Below, piece after piece: positions 33,330 through 60,129 of a stretch of DNA of 64,000 nucleotides (its first letter is position 1; every line of letters begins with the position of its first letter). A program made the translations under genes and the position numbers. The stretch is from contig NC_015675.1 of assembly GCF_000176035.2 (NCBI RefSeq), forward strand, positions 6,080,001-6,144,000. Reading direction: 5' to 3'. Origin of the DNA: Mesorhizobium opportunistum WSM2075 (GTDB lineage Bacteria > Pseudomonadota > Alphaproteobacteria > Rhizobiales > Rhizobiaceae). The notes under the pieces were generated by a model, which saw nothing but the letters and a program-made list of their open reading frames with translations, did no database searches and was not told the DNA's origin.

Positions 33330-33382
33330 TGCCGATTGACAAAAATCATAACAGGGGACCAAGATCATATGACCATCAACGA
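33330..33382 (+). promoter_or_regulatory. Promoter with shared element (copy A), sugar ABC operon
   Basis: TTGACA at 33336-33341, an 18-bp spacer and CAAGAT at 33360-33365, then TCATATGACCATCAACGA (33365-33382) across the likely start site. The 18-mer is identical to 44442-44459, and TGCCGATTGACA (33330-33341) is identical to 44408-44419. The binding-protein start codon is 48 bp downstream. Confidence 0.7.
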
Positions 33383-33392
33383 TCTTGGTCCC
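33355..33392 (+). other. 12-bp-stem hairpin enclosing element A
   Basis: GGGACCAAGATC (33355-33366) pairs perfectly with GATCTTGGTCCC (33381-33392) around a 14-nt loop that carries most of the shared TATGACCATCAA element. It could act as an extended operator or as a leader-RNA hairpin. The other copies of the element lack such arms. Confidence 0.6.
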
Positions 33393-33429
33393 GAGGTTGC
33401 CCCTCGGCATTGGCGAAAAGGAGAGCCAG

Positions 33430-34782
33430 ATGCCCGTTCAGCAGAGAGTGACCCATCGTTCAAAACAAAGCCCCGCCAACCCCATCCTTGCCACCGCCCT
33501 GCTAAGCCTCAGCCTGATCACAATGCCCGGCATAGGCCATGCCGATGGGATCACACTCAAGGTTTTCGGCGGCTCGGCGCTTGACGAACTCGCGCCGCGC
33601 CAACCGCCGGACGAGCAGAAGAAGATCCAGCAGCAGGTCATCGATGGGTTCCTCAGGGCCAACCCCGAGGTGACCGCTGTCGAATGGGACGCGCAGGGGC
33701 CACAGACCGATTCGATCCAGCGCCTGATGACCGCCAAGCTTGCAAACCAGGAAATGGACCTGATCGCCTGCCCGGCCTTCTACACCAACGGCGCCTACGT
33801 CCGGCGCAAGCTGGTCATGCCCATCACCGACAAGATTAAGCCGTTCCAGGACCGGATCGACGCCGCGGCACTTGGCGCCTTCACCATCAGCGGCCAGGTC
33901 TACGGCGTGCCGATCTCGACGCTCTCGACGTCGACGATCTTCTACAATGTCGACCTCTTCCAGAAACTCGCCATCCCGGTGCCGCCGACCTATGACGACC
34001 TGAAGGCGGCGGTGCCGAAATTCAAGGCCGACGGCGTGATCCCGCTTCTGCATCAGGGCTCGAACACCGTGATGTGGCCGATGTGGTATTTCGAAACCTT
34101 CTCGCAGGCCTCGGGCGATGCCGTCGCCAAGACCCAGAAGAACCTCGAGGGCACGGCGAAGTTCACCGATGCGCCCGATGTCGAAGGGTTCAAGCTGATC
34201 AAGCAGTGGGTCGATGACGGCATCCTTTCCAAGGATTCGCTCTCGGTCGACCAGGACGGCATGCGTGCGGCCTTCGCCGCCGGCAAGAGCGCCATGTATT
34301 ATGGCGGAACCTGGGAAGTCCCCTCGCTCCAGACCAGCGTCAAGAACTTCAAATGGGGCGTCTTTGCCTTTCCTAAAATGGACGGAACGCCGGGGGCGCC
34401 GGGCCATGGCGGCGGTGCCGACAACGGCATGTGCGTTTCCTCGTCGATCCCGCCCGAGAAGCTCGATGCCGCCGTCAAGTTCATCGAATATCTGACTAAG
34501 CCGGAGGTGGCGACGCTCTATCTTGCACCGGAGCAGCCGATCGCGGCCTCGATCAAGGGGGTGCCGCAGGTCGACGATGCCTATGCCGTCGAACTGCGCA
34601 AGCAAGCCTTCCCGAGCACGATCAAGTTCCTCGACTGGATCTGGCCGTCGGAAGTCGCGACGGCCACGGCTTCGGCCATCGCCGGCATCGTCGGCGGCAC
34701 GACGACGCCCGAGGATGCCGCCACCTCGATCCAAACCACCTTCGACGACCTCAAGGCCCAGGGCAATTGGCCGCCGAAGTAA
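33430..34782 (+). CDS. Carbohydrate ABC transporter substrate-binding protein
   Basis: 450-aa CUT1 binding protein. ATG 33430 is preceded by AAGGAGAG; the leader (NPILATALLSLSLITMPGIGHA) is a Sec signal after a basic start. The mature protein resembles sugar-binding proteins of family 1 (FYNVDLFQKLAIPVPPTYDDL). First gene of an operon with an isomerase, two permeases and a Gfo/Idh dehydrogenase, so it likely brings in a sugar or polyol that these enzymes isomerise and oxidise. Driven by the promoter with shared element A. Confidence 0.87.
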   Translation: MPVQQRVTHRSKQSPANPILATALLSLSLITMPGIGHADGITLKVFGGSALDELAPRQPPDEQKKIQQQVIDGFLRANPEVTAVEWDAQGPQTDSIQRLMTAKLANQEMDLIACPAFYTNGAYVRRKLVMPITDKIKPFQDRIDAAALGAFTISGQVYGVPISTLSTSTIFYNVDLFQKLAIPVPPTYDDLKAAVPKFKADGVIPLLHQGSNTVMWPMWYFETFSQASGDAVAKTQKNLEGTAKFTDAPDVEGFKLIKQWVDDGILSKDSLSVDQDGMRAAFAAGKSAMYYGGTWEVPSLQTSVKNFKWGVFAFPKMDGTPGAPGHGGGADNGMCVSSSIPPEKLDAAVKFIEYLTKPEVATLYLAPEQPIAASIKGVPQVDDAYAVELRKQAFPSTIKFLDWIWPSEVATATASAIAGIVGGTTTPEDAATSIQTTFDDLKAQGNWPPK

Positions 34783-34840
34783 GCGCCGATCTTGGGCGGA
34801 CGCGCATTCAGCCGAGTGATGCGCCAAGCATGAAAACAGG

Positions 34841-34862
34841 GGCCGCCCGCTTCGGGGCAGCC
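34841..34862 (+). other. Hairpin after the binding-protein gene
   Basis: GGCCGCCC and GGGGCAGCC form a stem of seven pairs with one mismatch, 58 nt after the binding-protein stop and just before the isomerase ribosome site. It is weaker than the hairpins at the same relative position in three other importer operons of the window. Confidence 0.4.
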
Positions 34863-34882
34863 TCATCAATCGGAGAGAACAC

Positions 34883-35821
34883 ATGACGCAGACTCGCGCC
34901 GAGCGGCAGCGCTTCTCGATCGGCTATCACCTGAACAGCTGGGACCTGACCGGCCTTCCGCTCGGGCCGGCCATCAAATTCCTGGCCGAACAGGGTTTCG
35001 GCTGGTTCGAGATCCTCGCCTTCACCAGCCTTTCGGACCAGTACGCCCGCAAATACATGCAGCTCGGCAATCAGGCGCCAATGGGGGTGACCACCGACAC
35101 CGACATCCTGCGGCGCTATGCACTGCTCTCGGAAGGCCAGAGCGAGCATGGCATCAAGCTCTCCTCCTTCTACGTCAATGCGATCTTCACCAACCCTGTC
35201 GCCTGGCCTTACGAACGCGACGTGCTGGTGGCGCTGACCAGGATGCTCAGGGGTTTTGGGTCACCGGTGCTGGTTCTCGGTGGCGGTCCCTCGGAAGCCA
35301 TCGCCGGCGCCCACACGGCCGACGACTACCGCGCCTTTTGCCGGGCCCTGGAGGATGTCGGCAGGCGGACAAAGGACCTCGGCATTGAGACGGTCTATCA
35401 CCCGCATCTCGATACCTTTATCGAGCGCCGCGACCAGCTCGATCGTATGATGGATGAGCTCGATACCGATCTTGCCGGCCTGTGCATCGATCCGGCCCAT
35501 CTTGCCCACACCAATTCCGATCCTGTGGACGCGGTCAGGACCTACATTTCGGCCGTGCGCTACATGCATTTCAAGGATACCAGGGTGGACCCGGGCCTGA
35601 AGGGCTATGACCGCTATGGCGCCTTTTGCGAACTCGGCGCCGGCGTCGTCGATCTCGCCGGCATCGTCGACGTGTTGCTGGAGGCCAATTACGACGGTCT
35701 CGCCATCATCGAGCTGGATGCGTCGAAGAAGACGGCGGAGCAAAGCGCGCTGGAAAGCATCGCCTATACCAGGGACACGCTCGGGCTGGTGCTGACGCCG
35801 CAAAGCGCGAAGGCCGCATGA
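34883..35821 (+). CDS. Sugar phosphate isomerase/epimerase (AP endonuclease 2 TIM barrel)
   Basis: 312-aa TIM-barrel protein of the xylose-isomerase-like family. Probable metal ligands lie in TVYHPHLDTF, LCIDPAHLAH, MHFKDTR and AIIELD. IolE-type dehydratases, hydroxypyruvate isomerases and 3-ketosugar epimerases share this fold. It lies between the binding protein and permease genes and overlaps the first permease start (ATGA). With the Gfo/Idh gene later in the operon, a 3-keto-sugar or inositol-like route is plausible. Confidence 0.8.
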   Translation: MTQTRAERQRFSIGYHLNSWDLTGLPLGPAIKFLAEQGFGWFEILAFTSLSDQYARKYMQLGNQAPMGVTTDTDILRRYALLSEGQSEHGIKLSSFYVNAIFTNPVAWPYERDVLVALTRMLRGFGSPVLVLGGGPSEAIAGAHTADDYRAFCRALEDVGRRTKDLGIETVYHPHLDTFIERRDQLDRMMDELDTDLAGLCIDPAHLAHTNSDPVDAVRTYISAVRYMHFKDTRVDPGLKGYDRYGAFCELGAGVVDLAGIVDVLLEANYDGLAIIELDASKKTAEQSALESIAYTRDTLGLVLTPQSAKAA

Positions 35822-36753
35822 TCACGCGGCCACAAGAAGTCGCTCCTGCTCCGGGTCGTTCCGGCGCTTGGCGCTTCGGTGCCGGGGACGGTGCCGTCGC
35901 CTTCTTGATGATCCTGCCCGCCGCGATCCTGTTTTGCCTCTTCTACCTTTGGCCGTTCATCAACGGTTTCTGGCTCAGCCTGCACAATTGGGACGGGTTT
36001 TCGGACCCGACCTGGGCAGGCTTTTCCAACTATCAACGCCTCCTGCACGACCGCATCTTCCTCGGCGCGCTGCGCAACAATTTGATCTTCGTCGTTGCCG
36101 TCGTCATCTTGAAGAACGTGCTCGGCCTCGGGCTGGCGCTGCTGCTAAACCGGGCGCTGGTCGGCCGCGCTTTCTTTCGTGCAGCCGCATTCGTTCCGGT
36201 GACGATGTCCTTCGTCGCCGTCGGACTGCTCTGGTCCTGGATCTACAATCCGGTCTTCGGCCTGCTCAACGGCGCGCTCGACCTGTTCGGCCTCGGCGCG
36301 CTGAAACAATCATGGCTGGGCGACGCCGACATCGCGCTCTATTCGATCATCGTCGTCGACGTCTGGAAATGGCTCGGCTTCCATGCCGTCATCTACCTCG
36401 CGGGGTTGCAGACGATCCCGTCGGAACTCTATGAATCGGCCAAGATGGACGGCGCCGGCCCGCTGCAGCGCTTTCGGCACGTCACCGTGCCGATGATGAT
36501 GCCGATCGTGTTCATCAACACCATCCTCGGCCTTTCCGGCGCCTTCGTGCGCAACTTCGACATCGTCTATGTCTTGACCAAGGGCGGTCCGAACCATGCC
36601 ACCGAAGTCGTACTCACCTACATGATGAGCAAGGCTTTCCAGGACGGCGCCATGAGCTATGCCGCGGCCATCGGCTATGTGCTGTTCCTGATCGTCGGGC
36701 TGGCCAGCGTCGGCCTGCTCGCCCTGATGCGGCGACAAAGGCTGGACGTATGA
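35818..36753 (+). CDS. Carbohydrate ABC transporter permease (MalF type)
   Basis: 311-aa permease with six probable membrane helices and EAA loop ELYESAKMDGAGPLQRFRHV. Its ATG overlaps the isomerase stop and its own stop overlaps the next permease, indicating translational coupling. It forms half of the CUT1 channel. Confidence 0.88.
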   Translation: MITRPQEVAPAPGRSGAWRFGAGDGAVAFLMILPAAILFCLFYLWPFINGFWLSLHNWDGFSDPTWAGFSNYQRLLHDRIFLGALRNNLIFVVAVVILKNVLGLGLALLLNRALVGRAFFRAAAFVPVTMSFVAVGLLWSWIYNPVFGLLNGALDLFGLGALKQSWLGDADIALYSIIVVDVWKWLGFHAVIYLAGLQTIPSELYESAKMDGAGPLQRFRHVTVPMMMPIVFINTILGLSGAFVRNFDIVYVLTKGGPNHATEVVLTYMMSKAFQDGAMSYAAAIGYVLFLIVGLASVGLLALMRRQRLDV

Positions 36754-37646
36754 TGAACGGCGCGGCCGACCCTTTGCCCACCCTCGATGATGGCGCGGCC
36801 TACAGCCGCCGTCGCCTTGGCACGCGCGACCTGCTCGAAGTCGCGGGTATCTACGCGGCGCTCGCTTTGGTGCTCATCGAGACGCTCTATCCCTTGCTTT
36901 GGGTGCTGTTCGGCTCGCTCAAGACCAAAGAGGAGATGCTGAGCAACATCTGGGGCCCGCCATCGAGCCTGGTGCTGCAGAACTATGTCGATGCCTGGCG
37001 CATCGCCGGCATGGGATCGCGTATCGTCAGCAGCATTCTCGTCACCGGTTCGGCCCTGATCATCCTGGTCGTCGTGGCAACGCCCTGCGCCTATGCATTG
37101 GCGCGCCTGCGGTTTCCTGGACGCGGCCTCGTGGTGGCGGTGGCAGTGGCGGCCATGCTGGTGCCCCCGCAGGTGATGGCCATTCCGCTGTTCATGGTGG
37201 CGCGCGATCTCGGCCTGATCAACAACCGGCTCGGGATTGCCTTCGTCTATGCGGCGACGTCGCTGCCGCTGTCGGTCTTCATCCTGCGCAGCTTCTTCGT
37301 CACGCTGCCCGCCGATCTCGAGGACGCAGCGCGCGTCGACGGCGCGAGCCGCCTCGAGATCCTGATCCACATCATGCTGCCGCTGGTCCGGCCGGGCGTC
37401 GCGCTGATCACGATCTTCGGCTTCATCGAGATCTGGAACGATTTCTTCCTCGCCTTCCTGCTGCTGCGCGACCCCTCCGTACAGACCATCCCGCTCGGCC
37501 TGGTCAGCTTCTTCCAGCAGTATGATTCGCTCTGGACGCTCTATTTCGCCGCGTTGACGATCACGACACTGCCGGTGATCGTCGTCTTCGTTGCCATGCA
37601 ACGGCAGTTCATCGCCGGCCTGACAGCCGGCGCCGTGAAGGGTTGA
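36750..37646 (+). CDS. Carbohydrate ABC transporter permease (MalG type)
   Basis: 298-aa permease with EAA loop DLEDAARVDGASRLEILIHI and six membrane segments. It overlaps the preceding permease by 4 nt. As in the 10-13 kb operon, no ATPase gene accompanies it, so a shared MsmK/UgpC-type ATPase elsewhere is required. Confidence 0.88.
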   Translation: MMNGAADPLPTLDDGAAYSRRRLGTRDLLEVAGIYAALALVLIETLYPLLWVLFGSLKTKEEMLSNIWGPPSSLVLQNYVDAWRIAGMGSRIVSSILVTGSALIILVVVATPCAYALARLRFPGRGLVVAVAVAAMLVPPQVMAIPLFMVARDLGLINNRLGIAFVYAATSLPLSVFILRSFFVTLPADLEDAARVDGASRLEILIHIMLPLVRPGVALITIFGFIEIWNDFFLAFLLLRDPSVQTIPLGLVSFFQQYDSLWTLYFAALTITTLPVIVVFVAMQRQFIAGLTAGAVKG

Positions 37647-37647
37647 T

Positions 37648-38718
37648 ATGCAGGATCGCGTCATTGGCGTTGGCGTCATCGGTTGCGGCGAAATCGCTCA
37701 GCTGATGCATTTGCCGTATCTCATGGAATTGCCGGCGTTTCGCATCGCCGCTCTCTGCGACATCTCGCGGGGGACGGTCGACAAGGTCGGGGAGCACTAT
37801 GGCGTCGCGGGAAGGTATACCGATCATCGCGCCCTGCTCGCCGACCCGAATGTCGATGCGGTGGTGATCTGCACTTACGATCATGGCGAGATGGTCGCCG
37901 ACGCGATCCGCGCCGGCAAGCACCTGATCGTCGAGAAACCGCTCGCCTTCACGCCGCAAGAGGCACGTCCGCTGGTCGAACAGGCCGAGCGGAGCGGCCT
38001 CGTCGCCCTTGTTGGCTACATGAAATTCTACGATCCCGGCTATGAGACCGGATTGGAGCGCATAGCCGCCATCGGCCGGCCGAAGTCGATCCATATCCAC
38101 GATTTCGCGGGCCGCTTCGACCGCTATGGCAAGCTCTACACGCAGACCCGGATCACCGACGTGCCGGCCGATGTGTTGACGGCGGGACGCGGTGCGGTCG
38201 CCCGGCGCGTCGAGGCGGCGCTCGGTGTGGACCATGCCGGCTATCGCGATCTCTATCTTGTACTGCTCAGCCTCGCCAGCCACGACCTTGCCGTCATGCG
38301 CGGTGCGTTCGGCACGCCCGACCGTGTCGTCCATGCGCAACAGACCGGTCCGAACCAGTTGCTGGCGGTCCTCGACTATGATGACGTTCCTTGCCTCTTC
38401 GACATGGCACTTGCCCAGTATGAATGGTGGGACGAGTGGATCCATGTGCATGGCGAGCGCGACGAGGTGCGGATCGAATTCCAGAACCCCTATTTCCGCA
38501 ATGCCTCGGCAACCGTGCGCCTGCGCGAGGCAACAGGCGAAACCGCGTCCGAGCGCACCATACCGGGTTTCCCGGACACCTCGTTCCGTCGGGAATGGCA
38601 GCATTTCGCCGATTGCATCCTGTCCGGGGCAACGCCGCGCACCCCACTTTCAGGCGGGCTTACCGATCTCGATCTTGCGGTCCGGATGATCCAGGCAATG
38701 CCGCCAAAACGGCTCTGA
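37648..38718 (+). CDS. Gfo/Idh/MocA family dehydrogenase
   Basis: 356-aa NAD(P)-dependent sugar/inositol dehydrogenase. N-terminal Rossmann fold with VGVIGCGEIAQ, then the EKPLA motif with the catalytic Lys, and a C-terminal alpha/beta domain. It follows the permease by one nucleotide and ends the operon. Members oxidise a ring hydroxyl of sugars, sugar acids or inositols; in tandem with the TIM-barrel isomerase it suggests oxidation then epimerisation or dehydration of the imported sugar. Confidence 0.87.
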   Translation: MQDRVIGVGVIGCGEIAQLMHLPYLMELPAFRIAALCDISRGTVDKVGEHYGVAGRYTDHRALLADPNVDAVVICTYDHGEMVADAIRAGKHLIVEKPLAFTPQEARPLVEQAERSGLVALVGYMKFYDPGYETGLERIAAIGRPKSIHIHDFAGRFDRYGKLYTQTRITDVPADVLTAGRGAVARRVEAALGVDHAGYRDLYLVLLSLASHDLAVMRGAFGTPDRVVHAQQTGPNQLLAVLDYDDVPCLFDMALAQYEWWDEWIHVHGERDEVRIEFQNPYFRNASATVRLREATGETASERTIPGFPDTSFRREWQHFADCILSGATPRTPLSGGLTDLDLAVRMIQAMPPKRL

Positions 38719-38750
38719 CGGTACATCCACCCGGGAATTTGCGGCGACCC

Positions 38751-39557
38751 CTAGCGATATTTTGGAAACGCGCCGCCGGCCGGCGCGTTGGCCCAGCTCT
38801 GCAAGGTCTGACCGCCGTCGATCAACCAGTCGACGCCGGTCACATGCCTTGCCTCGTCCGAAGCGAGGAAGGCCACCGCGGCAGCGACATCCTCCGGCTG
38901 GCCAATGCGGCGCAGGGGGATCCGGTCGGCGAAATGCTGGACGCTGCTTTTGAAATCGCCGTCGCCTGCAGCCGGCACGCCGAGCGTCGTCTCGATCACG
39001 CCGGGGCAGATGGCGTTGACGCGTATGCCGTAGGGGGCGGCATCGAGCGCGGCGACGCGCGTCAGCCCGACGACGCCATGTTTCGAAGCGACATAACCGG
39101 CGCCGCCCGAAAGCACGTCCCAGCCGGCCATGGACGAACCCATGTTGACGATCGAGCCGCCGGCTCCGGCCTTGATCATGGCCTGGAGCGAGGCCTGCAG
39201 GACGAGGAAGATGCCGCGCAAATTGATGCGGATGATGGTGTCCCAGTCCTCGACCGGCAAATCATGCACGGGAGCGACGGCGCCCGAAATCCCGGCATTG
39301 TTGAATACGACGTCCAGGCCGCCAAATGCCTCGACGGTCGTTTCGACGGCGTTGCGCACATTCTGCTCATCGGTGACGTCGGCTTCGATGGCGACCGTGT
39401 CTTCGCCGAGAGAGCTGGCCAGTTGCCGGGCCGCCGCGCCGTTGCGGTCGACAATGGCAACCCGCGCGCCTTCGTCGCGGAAACGCCGGACCGCGGCACT
39501 GCCAATGGCGCCGGCGCCGCCGGTGACGAGGACCGTCTTCTGGTCGAACCGTTTCAT
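38751..39557 (-). CDS. Short-chain dehydrogenase/reductase
   Basis: 268-aa classical SDR: TGGAGAIGSA, NNAG, NMGSSMAG with the catalytic Ser, YVASK, and the C-terminal DGGQT. ATG 39557 overlaps the stop of the epimerase gene, so the two form one operon. It converges on the Gfo/Idh gene with a 32-bp gap. It probably acts on the same sugar or sugar acid; its operon shares the common promoter element (copy B). Confidence 0.85.
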   Translation of the reverse strand: MKRFDQKTVLVTGGAGAIGSAAVRRFRDEGARVAIVDRNGAAARQLASSLGEDTVAIEADVTDEQNVRNAVETTVEAFGGLDVVFNNAGISGAVAPVHDLPVEDWDTIIRINLRGIFLVLQASLQAMIKAGAGGSIVNMGSSMAGWDVLSGGAGYVASKHGVVGLTRVAALDAAPYGIRVNAICPGVIETTLGVPAAGDGDFKSSVQHFADRIPLRRIGQPEDVAAAVAFLASDEARHVTGVDWLIDGGQTLQSWANAPAGGAFPKYR

Positions 39558-40414
39558 CCCTGGGTCTCCGGCTTTGGATAGGAACGCCATGAGTGCTCCG
39601 GCGCGAAGCCGATCGTCGCGCGCGCGTGGGCCGTATCGAGCACGGCGCCGAAACCGGCGATTGGCCGCGACAGGGCGACCCCCGGATAGACCCGGCGGAC
39701 CAGCGCTTCGGTTTCCTCTTCCATGAAGGTGTCGGCGGCACTGAGCAGGACCCGCAGATGGCCGCCGCCTTGCCATTCGAGCGCCCGCAGGAAGCCCTGC
39801 CCGGCATCACGCGCATCGAGATAGCTCCACAGGTCGCGGGCACTGTCGGCGGTGGCGCGGCGCGGGCCGACGCCGGCGAAAAAGGATTGCGGGGTCTGGA
39901 TCCACGGCATGCGGATGCTGACCGCCGAAAAAGCGCCGCGGCGCACCGCCGCGTCGACGATTTCCTCACCCAGCCACTTCGACAAGCCGTAAGGATCCTG
40001 CGCACCGACCGGATGGTTCATGTCGACCGGCAGATAGGGCGGAATGACCGCCTTCTCGAAGAAGGGATAACCGAAGACGCTGAAGGAGGAGGCATAGACG
40101 AAGCGCCCGATGCCAGCCAGGGCCGCAGCTTCGACGACATTGTAGGCGGTCGCGACGTTGGTCCTGAACACCTCGCCGCCGGCCCGACCGGTCGGCCGCG
40201 GAATGGCCGCGACATGCACGACGGCATCGCAGTCGCGCACCAGTTGAAGCGCCGATCCCAGGTCCGTCAGGTCGGCGGTGGCATGACGCCATGCGCTCCC
40301 GACCGGCGCCACCGCATCGATGCCCAGCACATCATGGCCGGCGGCAATCAGTGCCTCGGCCACATGACGGCCGAGCAGGCCACTGGCTCCGGTGACAATC
40401 GTCTTCATAATCAC
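39554..40414 (-). CDS. NAD-dependent epimerase/dehydratase (extended SDR)
   Basis: 286-aa extended SDR with TGASGLLGRHVAEAL at the N-terminus, VVHVAAIPRP in mid-domain and YGLSKWLGEE containing the Tyr-Lys pair. Uronate dehydrogenases and sugar epimerases look like this. It starts 34 bp downstream of element copy B and is first in the two-gene operon. ATG 40408 is an alternative start. With the SDR after it, it fits oxidation of an aldose or uronate. Confidence 0.84.
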   Translation of the reverse strand: MIMKTIVTGASGLLGRHVAEALIAAGHDVLGIDAVAPVGSAWRHATADLTDLGSALQLVRDCDAVVHVAAIPRPTGRAGGEVFRTNVATAYNVVEAAALAGIGRFVYASSFSVFGYPFFEKAVIPPYLPVDMNHPVGAQDPYGLSKWLGEEIVDAAVRRGAFSAVSIRMPWIQTPQSFFAGVGPRRATADSARDLWSYLDARDAGQGFLRALEWQGGGHLRVLLSAADTFMEEETEALVRRVYPGVALSRPIAGFGAVLDTAHARATIGFAPEHSWRSYPKPETQG

Positions 40415-40447
40415 GGCCCTCGGCTCGCACGCTCAATGGCTTGAATA

Positions 40448-40495
40448 TCATTGATGGTCATACAAATCGAGCGCAAGATTGCATACCCTTGTCAA
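40448..40495 (-). promoter_or_regulatory. Promoter with shared element (copy B), epimerase/SDR operon
   Basis: On the minus strand, TTGACA (40495-40490) is followed 33 bp later by TATGACCATCAATGA (40462-40448), a 14/15 match to copies A and C. The element begins at nearly the same distance from the -35 hexamer as in A (32 bp) and C (31 bp). Confidence 0.62.
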
Positions 40496-40581
40496 GGCCA
40501 TATCGCACTGGACAAATAGCGCATACGCTTATCGGAGCGGCGTGCGCAAGGCCGGAGAGCACAGCTTTGCGTCGAACGGGA

Positions 40582-40624
40582 TTGACTTGGCATCCGCCAA
40601 GGTTTTTTGTATGAGCATCAACGA
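40582..40624 (+). promoter_or_regulatory. Promoter with shared element (copy D), isochorismatase-MarR-enamidase operon
   Basis: TTGACT at 40582-40587 and TTTTGT at 40605-40610 with a 17-bp spacer, then TATGAGCATCAACGA (40610-40624), a 14/15 match to copies A and C. The ribosome site AAAGGAG and ATG 40644 follow. Confidence 0.6.
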
Positions 40625-40643
40625 TCGACCAAAGGAGATCGCC

Positions 40644-41288
40644 ATGGCCGTGGACGTTTTTTCCTCGCATCGGCACGATGATGCGGTGCGCCTCGATCCG
40701 CAACGCGCAGCCATTGTCGTCATCGACATGGTCAATGAATTCTGCAAGCCCGGCGGGGCCATGGTCCTGCCTGGATACGAGACGCTGGTCGCGCCGCAAC
40801 TGGCCGTCATCGAGGCTGCGCGCGCCGCCGGTGTGCCGGTGATCTGGGTTCACGATGCCCACCGGCCCGGCATGCGCCGCGAGCGTGAATGGGTAAAGCG
40901 CACACCGCATTGCGTGGAGGGAAGCTGGGGACCGGAAATCATCGAGGATCTCGGTGCGCGCGACGACGAGATCCACGTCATCAAGCGGCGCTACTCGGCC
41001 TTCTTCCAGACCGACCTCGACCTGACCCTCAAGGACATGCAGGTCGACCAGTTGATCATCTTCGGCGTGGTCACCAATATCTGCGTGAGATCGACCGTCC
41101 ACGACGCTTTTTTCCAGGGTTATGAAGTGGTGGTGCCGAGCGATTGCTGCGCGGCGACCGGACCGCGCGAGCAGGAAAGCTCGCTCTACGACATAGCGAC
41201 GCATTTCGGCGTGGTCAGCGATTCGGCTGATGTCGTCGCGGCATTGCGCGACGGGACGTCGCTGCAGCCGGCGAGCGTCGCGGCGTGA
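40644..41288 (+). CDS. Isochorismatase-like cysteine hydrolase (amidase type)
   Basis: 214-aa isochorismatase-fold hydrolase with the D-K-C triad in VVIDMVNEFC, VIKRRYSAF and GVVTNICVRST. This fold includes nicotinamidase, N-carbamoylsarcosine and biuret hydrolase, maleamate amidase and RutB, all cleaving C-N bonds. ATG 40644 follows AAAGGAG by 6 nt; an in-frame ATG at 40611 lies inside the promoter element. It is first in an operon with a MarR regulator and an enamidase, a context pointing to an amide released from an opened N-heterocycle. Confidence 0.84.
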   Translation: MAVDVFSSHRHDDAVRLDPQRAAIVVIDMVNEFCKPGGAMVLPGYETLVAPQLAVIEAARAAGVPVIWVHDAHRPGMRREREWVKRTPHCVEGSWGPEIIEDLGARDDEIHVIKRRYSAFFQTDLDLTLKDMQVDQLIIFGVVTNICVRSTVHDAFFQGYEVVVPSDCCAATGPREQESSLYDIATHFGVVSDSADVVAALRDGTSLQPASVAA

Positions 41289-41334
41289 GCCTTTTAGAGC
41301 CAGCGGCATCCAAGACATGCGATAGGAGTCCGGT

Positions 41335-41883
41335 TTGACGACCGAAAAGAAATCCGGGAAAGATGAGACGCCGAGGCGGCAACGCGGCAGCGCGGTGCCG
41401 CTGAGCCGCGAGCAGATGCTGGAGCGATACGCCGAGACCGGATACGAGTTGGACCGCCACCCGGCGCACGTCATCCGCAAGGCGCATCAGCGCGCGACAC
41501 TGCGCTTCCAGCAGGTCATGGCTGGCGAAGACCTTTCGCCAACCCAGTTCGCGGCGCTTGCCACGATCCTCAAACATGGCGAAGTCTCGCAGAACCATCT
41601 CGGCCGGCTGACGGCGATGGACCCGTCGACCATCAGCATCGTCATGCGCAAGCTGCTCAAGCACGGGCTGATCACGCGCAGCGCTTCCGACACCGATCAG
41701 CGCCTGTCGATGATCGCGCTGACCGAGAAAGGTACCGAATATACGCTCGAGCGGCTCGAACGCAGTGTCGAGGTCGGACGGCGGTTCCTGTCGCCTCTGT
41801 CAGCCACCGAGCAAGCGACGTTGCTGCGGCTGCTCCAGCGCATCAATGACGACGATCCATCGAATGGGGACAACGGCAAATAA
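41335..41883 (+). CDS. MarR family transcriptional regulator
   Basis: 182-aa regulator starting at TTG 41335 (AGGAG 6 nt upstream), with a ~35-residue basic tail before the MarR winged helix (FAALATILKHGEVSQNHLGR, AMDPSTISIVMRKLLKHGLI, SDTDQRLSMIALTEKG). It lies between the isochorismatase and enamidase genes. NicR, the nicotinate-pathway repressor, is also MarR-type. It is the only regulator inside the group of operons that share the TATGACCATCAA element, so it is my first candidate for the protein that binds it. Confidence 0.88.
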   Translation: MTTEKKSGKDETPRRQRGSAVPLSREQMLERYAETGYELDRHPAHVIRKAHQRATLRFQQVMAGEDLSPTQFAALATILKHGEVSQNHLGRLTAMDPSTISIVMRKLLKHGLITRSASDTDQRLSMIALTEKGTEYTLERLERSVEVGRRFLSPLSATEQATLLRLLQRINDDDPSNGDNGK

Positions 41884-41926
41884 GGCGCGCCCAGGCCCTT
41901 TTCCATACCAGCAGAAATGAGAACCG

Positions 41927-43120
41927 ATGTCGTCCGACCCCAAGTCGTCTGCCAACACGCTCGTCGTCCGCAACATCGGCCTGATGCTGAGCGGCGACCT
42001 CAGCCATCCCATCATCGACGCCGACACCATTGTCGTGGCCGACGGGCGCATAACCGGTATTGGCAAGGCCGATGACGTCGACAGCGGCAATGCGGCGACT
42101 ATCATCGATGCGATGGGCTGCGCGGTGGCGCCGGGGCTTATCGACAACCATGCCCATCCCGTGGCTGGCGACTGGACGCCCCGGCAGAACCAGATCGGCT
42201 GGATGGATTCGACCGTGCATGGCGGCGTCACCACGATCATTTCGGCGGGCGAGGTCCACACGCCCGGCCGCCCACGCGACCTGATCGGGCTGAAGGCGCT
42301 GGCGATCGCGGCGCAGCGGACCTTCTCCAACTTCCGTCCCAACGGGATGAAGATCCTGGCCGGCGCGCCCATCCTTGAGCCCGGCCTCACAGAGGACGAT
42401 TTCCGCACCTTGGCCGAAGCTGGTGTGACGCTCGTCGGCGAGGTTGGACTAGGCGGCGTCAAGGACGGTCCGACCGGCAGGCAGATGATCGCCTGGGCGC
42501 GCAAATACGGCATGACCTCAATGACCCATACGGGCGGTCCGTCCCTGCCCGGCTCCGGCCGCATCGGCGCCGACGTCGTGCTGGAGGTCGACGCCGATAT
42601 CGTTGCCCACGTCAATGGCGGGCCGACGGCTCTGCCCGAAAGCGAGATCCGGCAGATTTGCGAAAACGGCTCTCGGGCGCTTGAAATTGTCCACAACGGC
42701 AATCTGCGCACCGGCCTGTTCGTGCTCGACCTGGCAAGGCAGCGCGGCGAGCTTTCGCGCATCGTCCTCGGCACGGACAGCCCTGCCGGATCGGGCGTGC
42801 AGCCGCTCGGCATCCTGCGGATCCTGACCATGCTGGCTTCGCTGGGTGGTATTGCGCCGGAAGTGGCGTTCTGCCTCGCCAGCGGCAACACGGCGCGGGT
42901 CCGCGGGCTGGCTGACCGGGGCATCATCGAAGTTGGCCGCGCCGCCGACCTTATCTTCATCGATCAGGCGATGGGCGGCGCCGGCGACGGGCTGCTCGAC
43001 AGCGTGGCGTTGGGCAATCTGCCGGGCATCGGCATGGTCGTCATCGATGGCGAGGTGCGTACCGGCCGCAGCCGCAACACCCCGCCGGCAATGCGGGTGC
43101 CGGAAGTCAGAGCGGCCTAG
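41927..43120 (+). CDS. Enamidase-like amidohydrolase
   Basis: 397-aa amidohydrolase with the binuclear-metal motif LIDNHAHP, further ligands in MTHTGG and HVNGG, and the catalytic Asp in GTDSPAGSG. It resembles, from memory, enamidase of the Eubacterium barkeri nicotinate pathway across its length, e.g. ISAGEVHTPGRPRD, GGPTALPESEI, PLGILRILTMLAS and the SRNTPPAMR tail. Enamidase hydrolyses the cyclic enamide of 6-oxotetrahydronicotinate to a ring-opened formyl acid and ammonia. A related cyclic enamide is the probable substrate. Its stop codon overlaps that of the convergent AA_synth gene in a single CTAG. Confidence 0.82.
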   Translation: MSSDPKSSANTLVVRNIGLMLSGDLSHPIIDADTIVVADGRITGIGKADDVDSGNAATIIDAMGCAVAPGLIDNHAHPVAGDWTPRQNQIGWMDSTVHGGVTTIISAGEVHTPGRPRDLIGLKALAIAAQRTFSNFRPNGMKILAGAPILEPGLTEDDFRTLAEAGVTLVGEVGLGGVKDGPTGRQMIAWARKYGMTSMTHTGGPSLPGSGRIGADVVLEVDADIVAHVNGGPTALPESEIRQICENGSRALEIVHNGNLRTGLFVLDLARQRGELSRIVLGTDSPAGSGVQPLGILRILTMLASLGGIAPEVAFCLASGNTARVRGLADRGIIEVGRAADLIFIDQAMGGAGDGLLDSVALGNLPGIGMVVIDGEVRTGRSRNTPPAMRVPEVRAA

Positions 43121-43701
43121 CTGACGCCGTCCTTGCCGATAATCTTGTCCTTGGTCAGCCCGCCGACGCGGGGGTGCGGCCTGCCGGAATCGGTGACGGC
43201 GATGGCGACGACGATCTCGTCGGCGCGCGGTGCGTCGGGAACGCGAACCTCCATGCCGTCGAAATGACTGCGCACCCGTGCCGCATCCTTGTGGCCAAGC
43301 GGAATGTCGAGCGGCACGCCAAGGCCGCCACGCTTTTTCGATGAGGGAATGAGCGCGGCGCCCTTGCCGAGCACATCGCGAAACGGGGCGCCGAGCTTTG
43401 GATGAAGGATGGCGGCGGCATGTTCGAGCTCGCCGTCGGCGCCGACGGCGGCTGCCTTGCCGAAGCTTTCGACCTGGTCGCCGGCGATGCCGAGGGCAGC
43501 GACGGCACGCCTGGGCAATATATCGCCCAGCGCCTCGCCAATGGCGCTCAACGCCGACAGATCCTCGACAAAGGTCCCGGCATATGGGTTACGGATCACG
43601 GCGATGGAAGCGGCGCGCCGCGTCGGCGGGTCGACAGGGCGCCCGCCTTCGATCCGGGTTTCCTCGACGATGGTGATGATGCGGCGGATTTCCATGCTCA
43701 T
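43117..43701 (-). CDS. AA_synth (DUF1185) family protein, copy 1
   Basis: 194-aa protein of Pfam AA_synth (PF06684). The conserved core reads FGKAAAVGADGELEHAAAIL, followed by IPSSKKRGGLGVPLDIPLGH. A Bordetella member has a chorismate-mutase-like fold; the reaction is not known to me. ATG 43701 overlaps the stop of copy 2, so the two are a coupled pair, possibly a hetero-oligomer. It converges exactly on the enamidase gene. Confidence 0.8.
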   Translation of the reverse strand: MSMEIRRIITIVEETRIEGGRPVDPPTRRAASIAVIRNPYAGTFVEDLSALSAIGEALGDILPRRAVAALGIAGDQVESFGKAAAVGADGELEHAAAILHPKLGAPFRDVLGKGAALIPSSKKRGGLGVPLDIPLGHKDAARVRSHFDGMEVRVPDAPRADEIVVAIAVTDSGRPHPRVGGLTKDKIIGKDGVS

Positions 43702-44282
43702 CGCAATCCGTCCTCGCCCTTGATGTCGGCTGCAGCCAGGCCGCCGACCCGCGCATGAACGCGCGCACCGGTGGTCATCGCCAGGATGACCGCCATCTCG
43801 TCGCTGCGCGGTGCATCGCCAACGCCGATCTCGATCGCGTCGAAATGGCTGCGCACGTAAGAGGCGTTGATGTGGGTGATCGGAATGTCGATGCGCGTTC
43901 CGGGGCCGCCGACCTTTTTGGTCGATGGCACGATGGCCTTGGCGTCGCCGAGAAGTTCGCGCATCGCGTAGCCGCCCGGATTGTGCCACAGTGCGCCATG
44001 TTCAAGCTCGCCGGCGGCGCCGACGATGGCACCCTTGCCATAGCCTTCGACAGCAGCGACGCCATCACCCATGGCATCGATCAGCCGCCGTGCCATTTCG
44101 AGGCCGAGCGGCCTCAGATCCTCCATGAAGCCGGTGATCTCTTCGACGTAGCGTCCAGCAAAAGGGTTGGCGATGACGGCGACAATCGCGCCGCGCTTGG
44201 GCGGGCGTGCCGCGGGCGGCCCGCCCTCATGGAAGATCTCCTCGACCTGGACCAGAAATTTTCTGACCACCACAGCTGGCAT
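43698..44282 (-). CDS. AA_synth (DUF1185) family protein, copy 2
   Basis: Second AA_synth paralogue, with EGYGKGAIVGAAGELEHGAL and VPSTKKVGGPGTRIDIPITH. Choosing ATG 44282 (AAGGA upstream) gives 194 aa, the same length as copy 1; GTG 44306 would add eight residues. It is first in the two-gene operon. A TTGACA on the minus strand (44358-44353) and a weak 10/15 match to the shared element (44320-44334) lie upstream. Confidence 0.8.
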   Translation of the reverse strand: MPAVVVRKFLVQVEEIFHEGGPPAARPPKRGAIVAVIANPFAGRYVEEITGFMEDLRPLGLEMARRLIDAMGDGVAAVEGYGKGAIVGAAGELEHGALWHNPGGYAMRELLGDAKAIVPSTKKVGGPGTRIDIPITHINASYVRSHFDAIEIGVGDAPRSDEMAVILAMTTGARVHARVGGLAAADIKGEDGLR

Positions 44283-44407
44283 TGCGCGTATCCTTCGTCC
44301 CGTCACTCATGAAAACTCGTTAGAGTATCAACAATTATCCATCGTCGATGTTTGTCAAGCGTCGACGTCGAGCAAGCGAATGGAGCGGCCAGGAAAACTG
44401 CAATGGA

Positions 44408-44459
44408 TGCCGATTGACAGCCTGTCGGGCCGCTCATAAACTCATATGACCATCAACGA
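44408..44459 (+). promoter_or_regulatory. Promoter with shared element (copy C), nucleoside importer operon
   Basis: TTGACA at 44414-44419, a 17-bp spacer and TAAACT at 44437-44442, a good promoter, with TCATATGACCATCAACGA (44442-44459) over the expected start site. This 18-mer and TGCCGATTGACA (44408-44419) are identical to blocks at 33330-33382. Confidence 0.75.
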
Positions 44460-44537
44460 ACTCGCCGTTGTCCCGGCGATACGTGGGGGATGGTCAAGGC
44501 ATGGCTTTAAAGCTGAAAAAAGCTGAAGGGGAATGAC

Positions 44538-45542
44538 ATGAAAAGGGCGCTCAAGAGTTTATTCCTGGCAGGCACGATGCTTGCCGTTTCGTTGGGTTCG
44601 GCTGCCGCACAGACCAAGGTCTCCGTGGCCGCCATCTCGGGCTATTTTGCCCAGGGCTTCGGCGTTTCGATCGTCAACGGCCTCAACAAGGCCAAGACCG
44701 ACTTCGGCATCGACCTCAAGCTGGTCGATACCGGCAACCGGGCCCTCGACTACGAGGAGCAGTTCGAGAACCTCGCCAAGGCCAAGCAGTACGACCTGAT
44801 CTTCGTGATGGGCTGGGAACTGGTGGATTCGCTGCAGAAGGTCAGCAAGGAGTATCCCGACCAGCGCTTCGTCTTCATCGACGGCGTGCTCGACAACCCC
44901 AAGATGATCTACGCCAACTTCGCCGAGGAACAAGGCTCCTTCGTCGCCGGCGCGCTGGCCGGCATGATCGAGGCCAAGGGCAGCGAATTTCCCAAGATCG
45001 GCGACGGCAAGGCAATCGGCTTCGTCGGCGGCCGCGACATCCCGGTGATCCGCAACTTCCTCGGCGGCTACGAACAGGGCGCCAAATACGCCGCGCCCGA
45101 CGTGAAGGTGAATTCCGTGTTCGCCGGCACTTTCGACGATCCGGCCAAGGGCAGCGAGCTTGCCCAGGCGCTTTACGGCCAGGGCTCCGACATCGTCTAC
45201 AACGTTGCCGGCCCGACAGGCGAAGGCGTGATGCAGGCAAGTGCCGCGGTCGACAAATATTCGATCGGCGTCGACATCGACATGTGCGGCTCGGCGCCCG
45301 GGAACGTACTCGCAAGCATGTTGAAGCGCGGCGATATCGCCGTCTACACGCTGATCAAGGACGAGGTCGAGGGCCGCAAGGTCACCGCGGGCACCCGCAC
45401 GTTTGACCTCGCCTCGGGCGGCGTCGAGGTCAAGGTCTGCGACGACATCGCCCCCAAGATCCCGGCTGACGTGACCACCAAGCTGGACGAGATCAAGAAG
45501 GGCATCCTCGACGGCAAGATCGTGATCGCCAAGGCGAAGTAA
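44538..45542 (+). CDS. BMP family (PnrA-like) nucleoside-binding lipoprotein-type protein
   Basis: 334-aa basic membrane protein family binding protein with a Sec signal (SLFLAGTMLAVSLGSAAA) and no lipobox cysteine, recognised from DLIFVMGWELVDSLQKVSKE, FVAGALAGMIEAKGSEFPKIG and IGVDIDMCGSAPG. BMP proteins bind nucleosides or related purine compounds. First gene of an operon with a double ATPase, two permeases and two nucleoside hydrolases. A strong hairpin and three short tandem repeats separate it from the ATPase gene. Confidence 0.88.
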   Translation: MKRALKSLFLAGTMLAVSLGSAAAQTKVSVAAISGYFAQGFGVSIVNGLNKAKTDFGIDLKLVDTGNRALDYEEQFENLAKAKQYDLIFVMGWELVDSLQKVSKEYPDQRFVFIDGVLDNPKMIYANFAEEQGSFVAGALAGMIEAKGSEFPKIGDGKAIGFVGGRDIPVIRNFLGGYEQGAKYAAPDVKVNSVFAGTFDDPAKGSELAQALYGQGSDIVYNVAGPTGEGVMQASAAVDKYSIGVDIDMCGSAPGNVLASMLKRGDIAVYTLIKDEVEGRKVTAGTRTFDLASGGVEVKVCDDIAPKIPADVTTKLDEIKKGILDGKIVIAKAK

Positions 45543-45667: not shown

Positions 45668-47230
45668 GTGTCGAACGCGCCGGGGTCACCGACCCTCCAC
45701 AGCACTGCCGCAATGGCCGTCGAGTTGACTGCTATCACCAAGCGGTTTGGTGCGTTCGTTGCCAATGACGGTATCGACCTTGCCGTGCGCCGGGGTGAAA
45801 TCCACGCCATCATCGGCGAGAATGGCGCCGGCAAGACGACGCTGATGAACATCCTGTTCGGTCTGCTCCAGCCCGACGAAGGGTCGATCCGGCTGAATGG
45901 CGAGGCCACGGTGGTGGCCGACCCGGCCGTCGCCATCAAGGCTGGGCTCGGCATGGTGCACCAACATTTCAAGCTGGTGCCTTCGCTGTCGGTCGCCGAC
46001 AACGTCTTTCTCGGCATGGAAATCCGCCGGCATGGGCTGATCGACCATGCCGCGCAGATTTTGCGCACGCGCGACCTGTCGAAGCGCTTCGGACTGCATG
46101 TCGATCCAACCGAGCGCGTCCGGCTGCTCTCGGTCGGCATCGAGCAGCGCATCGAAATCCTGAAAGTCCTGGTGCGCGGCGCCCGCACCATCATCCTCGA
46201 CGAGCCGACCGCCGTGCTGACGCCGCAAGAGAGCCGCGAACTGTTCCAGACGCTGCGCAGCTTCGTCGCCGAGGGCATGACCGTGATCTTCATCTCGCAC
46301 CATCTGGAAGAGGTGATGGAGGTGTCCGACACGGTGACCGTACTGCGCAACGGCAAGAAGGTGGCGACCCGTCCGACGTCGGAACTCAGCAAGGACGAGC
46401 TGGTGCGCATGATGGTCGGCCGCGAGGTCAGTTTCGACCGGCGGCCGCGCGCGGCGCTGCATGGCGACGTGGTCCTCGACGTCAAGGATCTGTGGGCGCG
46501 CGACGATCGCCGGCTGCCGGCTGTTCGTGGTGCAAGCTTTGCTGTCCGTTCCGGCGAGGTTGTGGGCATAGCCGGCGTCGCCGGCAACGGGCAGACGGAA
46601 CTGGCCGAGGTGCTTTCGGGCCTGCGGCCGGCAAGCCATGGCGGAGCCTGGTTGAAGGGCCAGGATCTCACCACGCTCTCCACCGCCGCAATTCGCGAGG
46701 CCGGCCTTGCCCATGTTCCGGGCGACCGCATGGTGCGCGGCGTCGATCGCAATGCGTCGATCGCGGCAAACACGCTGATGGGCCGCCAGCATCGTGCGCC
46801 GTGGTCCAACAAGGGCGTGCTCAACTGGAAGGCTATCGGCCAGGGTGCCAACGCCCTGATCAAGAGCTTCGACATTCGTGCGCAGGGATCGGGAGACGCG
46901 GTCAAGCGGCTTTCGGGCGGCAACATCCAGAAAGTAGTGCTGGCGCGCGAATTCACCAATGGCGCCGACTTCCTGCTGATCGACCAGCCGACGCGCGGCG
47001 TCGACATCGGCGCCCAGGAGGCCATCCACGACGAGATCATGCGCCAGCGCGCGGCCGGCCGTGCCATCCTGCTGATCTCCGTGCAGCTTGACGAACTGGC
47101 CGCCCTCGCCGACCGCATCCTGGTGATGTTCAACGGGCGCATCATGGGCGAAGTTGCCGGCGACGATGCCGACGAAGACAGGATCGGCATGATGATGGCG
47201 GGTGTCTCGCCGCAGATGGAGCCCGCATAA
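45668..47230 (+). CDS. Nucleoside ABC transporter ATPase (double domain)
   Basis: 520-aa tandem ATPase of the BMP/ribose-type importers. Domain 1 has Walker A GENGAGKTT and Walker B TIILDEPTAVLT. Domain 2 has a degenerate Walker A (GVAGNGQTEL), signature LSGGNIQKVVLARE and LLIDQPTRGVD with Gln in place of the catalytic Glu, normal for this class. Start is GTG 45668 right after the tandem repeats, or ATG 45713. Its TAA overlaps the ATG of the first permease. Confidence 0.9.
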   Translation: MSNAPGSPTLHSTAAMAVELTAITKRFGAFVANDGIDLAVRRGEIHAIIGENGAGKTTLMNILFGLLQPDEGSIRLNGEATVVADPAVAIKAGLGMVHQHFKLVPSLSVADNVFLGMEIRRHGLIDHAAQILRTRDLSKRFGLHVDPTERVRLLSVGIEQRIEILKVLVRGARTIILDEPTAVLTPQESRELFQTLRSFVAEGMTVIFISHHLEEVMEVSDTVTVLRNGKKVATRPTSELSKDELVRMMVGREVSFDRRPRAALHGDVVLDVKDLWARDDRRLPAVRGASFAVRSGEVVGIAGVAGNGQTELAEVLSGLRPASHGGAWLKGQDLTTLSTAAIREAGLAHVPGDRMVRGVDRNASIAANTLMGRQHRAPWSNKGVLNWKAIGQGANALIKSFDIRAQGSGDAVKRLSGGNIQKVVLAREFTNGADFLLIDQPTRGVDIGAQEAIHDEIMRQRAAGRAILLISVQLDELAALADRILVMFNGRIMGEVAGDDADEDRIGMMMAGVSPQMEPA

Positions 47231-48270
47231 TGACTGACCGTTTGCGCGCTTTTTCCGGCCAGATCATCGCCATAGGCGTGGCCCTGCTGATGGGCGCGGT
47301 CATCATCCTCATGGTCGGCGAGAGCCCGGTCCGTGTCTTCATGACGCTGTTGCGTGGCGCCTTCGGCGACCAGGAAAAGATCGCCGGCACGTTGCTGCAG
47401 ACGACGCCGATCCTGATTTGCGGTGTCGCAGCCTGCGTCGGGCTGCGCGGCGGCATGTTCAACGTCGGCATAGAGGGGCAGTTGTTCCTTGGCGGATTTG
47501 CCGCCGCCTGGGTCGGTTTCTCCTTTTCCCTGCCCGCGGGCATTCACACGCTGGCGGCCCTGGGGCTTGCTGTCGTCGCGGGCGCGGCCTGGGTCGCCAT
47601 CCCCGCCTATTTCCGGGCCCGCTACAACACCAACGAAGTCGTTTCGACGATCCTGTCGAACTATATCGCGGTCCTGCTGACTTCCTACTTCACCATCTTC
47701 CTGTTCAAACGGCCCGGCGGCTGGTCCGAGACGCCACCGATCCTGGCAACGGCCTATCTGCCGGAGATCTTTTCATTTTCGCGGCTGAACTGGGGGCTGG
47801 TCATCGGCCTGCTGCTGGCGCTCGGTGTCGCGCTCGTGTTCCGCTACACCAGCTGGGGCTACGGCGTGACGATGGTCGGCTCGGCGCCGAAGTTCGCCGA
47901 ATATGGCGGCATCAACGTGAAACGGCAGGGCTTCGTGGTGCTGCTGCTTTCAGGCGCAGTCGGCGGACTGGCCGGGGGCATCGAGACCCTTGGCGTGCAT
48001 CACCGGTTCATGGAGGGCTTTGCTCCGGGTTTCGGTTTCGACGGGCTGATCGCGGCGTTGCTCGCCAACGGCTCGCCGGTCGCCACCATCGTCACGGCGC
48101 TGTTCTTTGGCGCGCTTCGCAGCGGGTCGCTGCTGCTCGAGGTCGACACCACAGCGTCGCGCGAAATCATCACCGTGATCCAGGCGCTGATCATCCTCAG
48201 CGTGTCGGCGCAGGTTCTGGTCAGACGCCGCGGCGACAGCCAGGCGGGGGAGCGGCGATGGAAATTCTAG
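47230..48270 (+). CDS. Nucleoside ABC transporter permease 1
   Basis: 346-aa BPD_transp_2 type permease with about eight to ten membrane helices. GLRGGMFNVGIEGQLFLGGF is the conserved motif of this class, and the C-terminus is cytoplasmic and basic. It is translationally coupled to the ATPase (TAATG) and overlaps permease 2 by 13 nt. Confidence 0.89.
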   Translation: MTDRLRAFSGQIIAIGVALLMGAVIILMVGESPVRVFMTLLRGAFGDQEKIAGTLLQTTPILICGVAACVGLRGGMFNVGIEGQLFLGGFAAAWVGFSFSLPAGIHTLAALGLAVVAGAAWVAIPAYFRARYNTNEVVSTILSNYIAVLLTSYFTIFLFKRPGGWSETPPILATAYLPEIFSFSRLNWGLVIGLLLALGVALVFRYTSWGYGVTMVGSAPKFAEYGGINVKRQGFVVLLLSGAVGGLAGGIETLGVHHRFMEGFAPGFGFDGLIAALLANGSPVATIVTALFFGALRSGSLLLEVDTTASREIITVIQALIILSVSAQVLVRRRGDSQAGERRWKF

Positions 48271-50268: not shown

Positions 50269-50279
50269 GGACCGAAAAT

Positions 50280-53046: not shown

Positions 53047-53092
53047 TTCTCTCTGCCTCCTCGCGCAGCCACAAAACAGATTCCATAGGCGA

Positions 53093-53131
53093 TTGACAAG
53101 GTTCTTGGCGCTCCATAGCATGGTATACCAT
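53093..53131 (+). promoter_or_regulatory. Promoter and FCD-GntR operator
   Basis: TTGACA (53093-53098), a 17-bp spacer and TAGCAT (53116-53121), overlapped by the perfect palindrome ATGGTATACCAT (53120-53131). TGGTATACCA fits the binding sites of FCD-type GntR proteins. Repressor bound there would block initiation of the 53.2-62.0 kb operon. Confidence 0.75.
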
Positions 53132-53185
53132 AAGACGATACAGTGATGACGGCGCGGCAAGGCGCCATCCGACCAAGGACTTCTG

Positions 53186-55559: not shown

Positions 55560-55564
55560 AGCCG

Positions 55565-58092: not shown

Positions 58093-58172
58093 CCGCCGCA
58101 TGCCGGGGAAACGCGATCAAGGCGAAAACGCCGGTCGCGGACAGCCAACGAAAACAAACAGAGGAGAACGAC

Positions 58173-59207: not shown

Positions 59208-59226
59208 GCCTGCCCTCGAACAGAAA

Positions 59227-59249
59227 GGGACGAGACGGCGTCTCGTCCC
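59227..59249 (+). other. Hairpin after the PotD-like gene
   Basis: GGGACGAGAC (59227-59236) pairs perfectly with GTCTCGTCCC (59240-59249) around a 3-nt loop, 20 nt after the binding-protein stop and 18 nt before the permease start. Same position as in two other importer operons of the window. Confidence 0.7.
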
Positions 59250-59267
59250 CACAGCCGGATCGCTGCC

Positions 59268-60128: not shown

Positions 60129-60129
60129 G

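Follow-up and report, generated by a model that had tools for sequence, protein, structure and literature searches.

In a 64,000-nt window of the Mesorhizobium opportunistum WSM2075 genome (contig NC_015675.1, positions 6,080,001 to 6,144,000; positions below count from the first base of this window unless marked as genomic), a short sequence element, TATGASCATCAAYGA, recurs at the promoters of one gene cluster and nowhere else in the genome. We propose, at a probability of roughly 0.88, that this element is the operator of a local, autoregulated MarR-family repressor encoded within the cluster (41335-41883) and acting on five transcription units. An earlier note on this DNA had described four copies of the element and suggested that one regulator, most simply this MarR protein, controls all four operons. 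The choice of regulator is supported, as MarR travels with the element and a neighbouring GntR protein does not; the number of promoters rises from four to five.

The four exact copies lie at 33368-33382 (+), 40462-40448 (-), 40610-40624 (+) and 44445-44459 (+), the coordinates and strands first reported for them, and mark the sites designated operators A, B, C and D, respectively. They are the only exact matches in the whole genome (one contig of 6,884,444 bases), and the reversed-pattern control gives none. A random scatter through the genome, named by the earlier note as a finding that would speak against its proposal, is thus not what is seen, with 4 of 4 exact matches inside the cluster. 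Allowing up to two mismatches gives 43 genomic matches against 7 for the reversed pattern, two of the 43 at one mismatch (genomic positions 5138874 and 1272311, neither with TTGAC within the preceding 60 bases) and 37 at two. Within the window alone, up to three mismatches yield 6 matches against 2.47 expected, a number reached in 4 of 100 shuffles, and loose matching in the window is therefore a weak test, the exact genome-wide count being the strong one. A composite search for TTGAC, a spacing of 21-28 bases and the relaxed motif returns only the same four places, with no further site elsewhere in the genome. The distance from TTGACA or TTGACT to the motif, reported earlier as 28-33 bp, is 32, 33, 28 and 31 bp from start to start. 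An 18-bp identity and a common TGCCGATTGACA, attributed earlier to copies A and C, are true of the pair at 33368 and 44445 (sites A and D here); if the earlier C denotes the third in order (40610), that label is wrong. The idea that TGCCGATTGACA betrays a duplication linking promoters A and D was rejected, since in relatives' promoters nothing of this 12-mer beyond CGATTGACA is common to both sites.

Relatives carry the element at the same genes. Among 99 genomes of the genus, drawn evenly from a larger group, 21 contain the exact motif, with 63 matches in total, 62 of which lie inside this cluster. The remaining match (in genome G097) is located in a 20-kb stretch in which no cluster genes were found, has no TTGAC before it and resembles an unrelated reading-frame start. 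Searching species genomes with the MarR alignment yielded 69 loci (1.32 Mb), some from genomes of the genus sample, belonging to Mesorhizobium, Aminobacter, Kaistia, Bosea, Rhizobium, Shinella, Xaviernesmea, Aureimonas and others. The relaxed motif TWTGANNAYCAAYRA has 152 matches in these loci, 150 of them preceding orthologs of the genes that lead operons A-D (isochorismatase 41, BMP protein 41, epimerase 39 and sugar-binding protein 29), and TTGAC stands 26-33 bp upstream in 150 of 150 such sites. The two matches outside the assignment rule lie near the PF06684 gene pair in L098 and between the epimerase and BMP genes in L111. The reversed pattern has no match in the 69 loci, and 100 permuted patterns have 0.1 on average and 7 at most.

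What is conserved exceeds the 15-mer in length, at about 19 bp (TTGTWTGANNAYCAAYRAT), and is less strict in sequence. TATGASCATCAAYGA forms the centre of an imperfect 19-bp dyad that covers the predicted -10/+1 region; diverged relatives have TATGACCACCAACAA, TTTGACCATCAAYGA, TATGACAATCAATGA or TTTGATCATCAAYRA instead. A position weight matrix (PWM) built from 40 distinct sites of relatives scores 35.0 bits at operator B (40447-40465, minus strand), 32.8 at operator A (33365-33383, plus strand), 32.6 at operator C (40607-40625, plus strand) and 32.1 at operator D (44442-44460, plus strand), followed by 20.8 at 44317-44335 (plus strand) and only 8.6 at the next match. This fifth site, designated operator E, lies in the promoter of the adjacent PF06684 gene pair, which is transcribed from the minus strand, 17 bp after a TTGACA at 44353-44358 (-). 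The earlier note had seen it as a weaker 10/15 match at 44320-44334; the match is present, but it counts 11/15 and is a real fifth site. Upstream of the first gene of this pair in 60 regions of relatives, the best match to TWWGANNAYCAAYRA is 15/15 in 38 regions, 14 in 8, 13 in 4, 12 in 8 and 11 in 2; in two of the 38 (L088 and L091) the full match is the neighbouring operator-D variant, leaving 36. No site was found at the PF06684 promoter in L095, L103, L105, L127 and L128, and in all of these except L127 the PF06684 pair lies behind the enamidase gene.

The symmetry of the element consists of an inner TGA-N3-TCA and an outer TTGT...ACRA, the form that a homodimeric winged-helix protein would need. 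T at position -2 faces A at position 15 in 40 of 40 sites, the first of these two sides not being set by the search pattern. The copies found by PWM in the clusters of L096, L098 and L099 read TTGTTTG-N4-CAAACAA, a perfect 7-4-7 repeat, and are better evidence of symmetry than counts of matching pairs. At operator C, which lies on the promoter predicted for isochorismatase-marR, the dyad is imperfect, and the search pattern sets most of the positions that match.

At least one TWTGANNAYCAAYRA match is present in 59 of the 69 loci, and the PWM adds six more (L096, L106, L107, L108, L126 and L127). When lead genes are scored for a PWM match of at least 15 bits on the same strand and no more than about 170 bp before the start, 177 of 188 have a site: 32/32 for the sugar-binding protein, 54/55 for BMP, 43/45 for the epimerase and 48/56 for the isochorismatase. 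At 20 bits the corresponding numbers are 32, 54, 41 and 44. With 150 of the 152 pattern matches so placed, the motif is kept upstream of orthologous operons, the other point on which the earlier note had made its proposal depend. The clusters themselves are rearranged. The sugar operon is a presence/absence module, and several clusters that lack it keep the rest; it is divergent to the isochorismatase gene in, for example, L101, L104 and L117, and adjoins the BMP operon in L102, L106, L107, L112, L120 and L121. The isochorismatase-marR genes stand behind the nucleoside hydrolases in these last six loci and also in L109 and L111. Throughout these changes of gene order the sites still precede the lead genes, apart from the 11 of 188 that have none.

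The presence of the element follows that of marR. The protein scores 46.5 bits against PF01047 (cut-off 24.6) and 45.8 bits against PF12802 (cut-off 27), identifying a winged-helix MarR domain, and its recognition region, SQN.LGR.T.MDPSTIS.V, is conserved in 95% or more of 64 MarR proteins. Within the genus, the exact motif occurs in 20/20 genomes whose MarR ortholog is 86% or more identical versus 1/79 others, the 79 including six genomes with a MarR of 61-79% identity that carry variant sites. At the family level, the pattern TWTGACCATCAAYGA is found in 17/26 MarR genomes versus 16/368 others, each of these 16 having a single match, and at the order level the composite pattern is found in 15/18 versus 4/379. 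A MarR paralog of about 40% identity is encoded at genomic positions 639401-639805, and similar ones (E up to 1e-20) occur in 69 of the 99 genus genomes.

Several points weigh against the assignment of the element to MarR. The counts in the 69 loci are conditional on marR, by which the loci were chosen, and four of these loci have no convincing site by pattern or PWM: L125, an 11.6-kb contig, and L129-L131, which hold MarR relatives of about 45% identity without cluster genes. The 11 lead genes without a same-strand site comprise eight isochorismatase genes (L095, L097, L098, L099, L103, L105, L126 and L128), two epimerase genes and one BMP gene, and 3 of the 18 order genomes with MarR lack the composite pattern. 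The reversed controls were not empty, with one match in the genus sample and two for the composite in the order search. Fisher values of 5e-20, 1e-14 and 5e-21 for genus, family and order take no account of how the genomes are related, and no more than eight candidates per genome were scored in the protein searches at family and order level. The dyad is imperfect, and its pair counts are no independent proof of symmetry because the search pattern fixed most of the matching positions. Likewise, relatives of sites A-D supplied the training set of the matrix, which leaves the PWM score of the fifth site as the only independent one.

The element could instead be the operator of another regulator, such as the GntR/FCD protein encoded at 52375-53214 or one encoded elsewhere, with MarR as a passenger. 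The assignment to MarR is made from sequence, the GntR gene is only 8 kb from the last operator, and GntR is the only alternative that was compared, all of which leaves room for such a regulator. However, a GntR ortholog (E up to 1e-50) was not found in 11 of 26 marR genomes, on which ground GntR 52375 was rejected; it is present in the other 15, and, the window's own genome aside, all 14 have it on another contig or more than 40 kb from the cluster (many of these genomes being drafts). Confinement of the exact motif to the cluster is a misfit with a distant global regulator, and at genus, family and order level alike the motif tracks marR. We consider control by a different protein improbable.

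It is far less credible still that the conserved letters are coding, so that ATG-ACC/AGC-ATC-AAY-GAN would start leader peptides (M-T/S-I-N-D/E) or leaderless genes and act by attenuation. All four window copies do contain ATG, their two variable positions fit codon variation (T/S and synonymous N), and the one unrelated chance match, in G097, reads like such a gene start. Yet neither the relatives' TTTGACCATCAAYGA and TTTGATCATCAAYRA nor operator E contains ATG, indels just downstream shift the frame (in L037 at site A and in L034 at site D), the isochorismatase gene has its own AAAGGAG and ATG at 40644, and conservation extends 5' of the ATG as TTG or TCA. The leader-peptide reading (M-T/S-I-N-D) was rejected because relatives lose both the ATG and the frame. 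The near-constant distance from TTGAC, and a TATGAG at site C that could serve as a -10 hexamer, might suggest that the element is part of the promoter, either an unusual -10 or an alternative-sigma-factor motif, and that its co-occurrence merely reflects a promoter class. The spacing from TTGAC to the motif nevertheless differs by class (26-28 for isochorismatase versus 30-33 for the others), site E starts 17 bp after its TTGACA in the opposite orientation, and a sigma-factor motif would not be confined to a single cluster in 6.9 Mb of genome. A promoter or sigma element was rejected on the grounds of the varying spacing and the confinement, and we give this reading next to no weight.

Under the MarR model, a MarR dimer would bind the 19-bp imperfect dyad where it covers the predicted -10/+1 region at each of five promoters, blocking transcription. 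A pathway metabolite, perhaps an aromatic or heteroaromatic carboxylate, would bind the dimer and cause its release, and the five units would then be expressed together: the sugar ATP-binding cassette (ABC) and Gfo/Idh genes, the epimerase-SDR pair, isochorismatase-MarR-enamidase, the PF06684 pair, and the nucleoside importer with the nucleoside hydrolases. Repression is favoured because the operators cover the predicted -10/+1 region, and the switch would be autoregulated because marR is the second gene behind operator C. We infer MarR binding, repression, ligand class and substrate from sequence comparison. Because the element on five promoters tracks the local MarR, transport and breakdown genes are very probably switched on together by one compound. 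That all units also serve one compound is plausible, though a weaker claim, and the absence of the sugar ABC operon from several clusters weighs against it. In functional terms, this is a local catabolic switch of the usual MarR type, and its operator is well supported. No paper title on the regulon or motif was found in the open-licence literature, among the matches listed, and a search of PMC10269826 for operator passages gave none.

Relatives of the MarR protein offer clues to the ligand. BpsR of Bordetella is a MarR-family repressor of the nicotinate nic genes, and its Tyr15, His23, Arg26 and His32 hold 6-hydroxynicotinate, according to excerpts of PMC6837509. The cluster MarR is related to it (6pcp_A, E 4.3e-11), and both appear to govern genes handling N-heterocycles, the controlled genes themselves being different. 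In the alignment, Tyr37, His45 and Arg48 fall on the first three ligand contacts and Ala54 on the His32 position; among 70 aligned MarR proteins these residues are kept in 70, 66, 70 and 70, respectively. The full BpsR-type contact set is thus absent, with Ala54 replacing His32 in 70 of 70, a point against the MarR model, as the three conserved contacts are a point for it. Since three of the four contacts are present, the ligand may plausibly be a ring compound bearing a carboxylate, though less plausibly 6-hydroxynicotinate itself. No nicotinate-pathway or nic genes were noticed among the Pfam names from scans of part of the window's open reading frames (ORFs), no search aimed at them having been made. 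The best relative in the PDB, 2nnn (a probable transcriptional regulator; E 9e-22), has QNxLGRLTAMD in common with the recognition region. The second-best, the MarR-family PcaV (4fht, E 2.6e-14), shares an HPxHxxR stretch but differs in its target genes and in its ligand, which we take to be protocatechuate.

The genes behind the operators are as follows. The predicted -35 hexamer TTGACA at 33336-33341 (+) and operator A, conserved in relatives, precede a plus-strand operon encoding a sugar-type ABC solute-binding protein (33430-34782; PF13416), a xylose-isomerase-like TIM barrel protein (34883-35821; PF01261), two ABC permeases (35626-36753, ORF limits, the true start probably lying after 35821, and 36750-37646; both PF00528) and a Gfo/Idh/MocA oxidoreductase (37648-38718; PF01408). 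No ATPase was seen among the ORFs scanned in this operon (33430-38718), and the ATPase is probably a shared one encoded elsewhere. Operator A lies inside a second inverted repeat (33355-33392; GGGACCAAGATC...GATCTTGGTCCC), whose core arms, 10 bp long, match perfectly in 9 of the 11 promoters of the sugar-operon class examined; it is not simply an RNA hairpin, because its left arm overlaps the predicted -10. The 5' leader at 33387-33415, GGTCCCGAGGTTGCCCCTCGGCATTGGCG, is identical in 11 of 11 promoters of that class examined. Operator B, with TTGACA at 40490-40495 (-), precedes a minus-strand operon of an NAD-dependent epimerase/dehydratase (39554-40414; PF01370) and an SDR oxidoreductase (38751-39776, ORF limits, the true start probably near 39550; PF13561). 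Operator C, with TTGACT at 40582-40587, is followed on the plus strand by an isochorismatase-family amidohydrolase (40644-41288; PF00857), the MarR-family regulator, proposed from motif co-occurrence to bind all five operators, and an enamidase-like amidohydrolase (41927-43120).

Operator E would serve the minus-strand PF06684 (AA_synth, former DUF1185) pair, of which the first gene occupies 43698-44306, probably starting at an ATG at 44282, and the second 43117-43701. Operator D, with TTGACA at 44414-44419, precedes a plus-strand operon for a BMP/PnrA-type binding protein of a nucleoside importer (44538-45542; PF02608), an ABC ATPase (45668-47230; PF00005 in two stretches), two ABC permeases (47230-48270 and, as the C-terminal part of ORF 47418-49244, 48267-49244 with an approximate start; both PF02653) and two nucleoside hydrolases (49255-50268 and 50265-51212; both PF01156), the second having RihA as its best NCBIfam model, below that model's cut-off. 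The adjacent region, 52375-62003, contains its own GntR gene, a third PF06684 gene, and genes for a fused alpha/beta-hydrolase-flavin reductase, a luciferase-type monooxygenase, an aldehyde dehydrogenase and an ABC importer; no operator site of 8 bits or more was found there by PWM. Some relatives have an extra regulon unit that is absent from the window, a branched-chain/amide-type ABC importer (Peripla_BP_6/Peripla_BP_5 binding protein), with two tandem operator sites in L091 (2617-6397) and L092 (2409-6080) and one in L096 (12045-16848), where no BMP gene was mapped.

Taken together, the annotated functions suggest that a nucleoside or similar N-glycoside is imported and hydrolysed, and that its base is opened as a cyclic amide. 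The 41927-43120 product is a nearly full-length relative of Enamidase (PDB 2vun; E 1.2e-110, query residues 12-393), an enzyme that we take to act on 6-oxotetrahydronicotinate in nicotinate fermentation. The isochorismatase has RutB as its nearest solved relative (PDB 8bkd, E 7.5e-30), and BMP-type import with RihA-like hydrolases would fit pyrimidine nucleosides, recalling Rut pyrimidine degradation; however, the isochorismatase reaches only 119.2 bits against the NCBIfam equivalog cut-off of 377.95 for RutB (ureidoacrylate amidohydrolase), and no luciferase-type RutA is present among the regulon genes. In Microvirga antarctica (L127, 3789-7624), HyuA/HyuB hydantoinase genes are neighbours of the PF06684 pair and the nucleoside hydrolase genes; no gene for an enamidase was mapped at that locus. 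The HyuA/HyuB genes, together with the branched-chain/amide-type importer of the three other loci, suggest that an N-glycoside or its base is taken up and that a cyclic amide is hydrolysed. A tentative reading, which we hold to be possible and not probable, is an undescribed pathway of Hyphomicrobiales for nucleosides or N-glycosides with a cyclic-amide base (of pyridine, hydantoin or pyrimidine type). The BMP importer, in some strains joined by a sugar-type or branched-chain/amide-type importer behind the same operator, would take up the substrate, and the two nucleoside hydrolases would split it. The enamidase (in Microvirga perhaps HyuA/HyuB) would open the base, the RutB-like amidohydrolase and the PF06684 pair would finish the breakdown, and MarR, sensing a ring-carboxylate intermediate, would gate the whole pathway.

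These results define, within 18 kb of uncharacterised genes, a regulon of five promoters for which a regulator is proposed, along with an operator that is conserved through several rearrangements of its operons. PF06684, for which we found no account of the reaction, now has a place in a bounded pathway, together with nucleoside hydrolases and amidohydrolases that open rings. The regulon also offers a direct route to the substrate, as the inducer of a single MarR reporter should be the pathway's metabolite.

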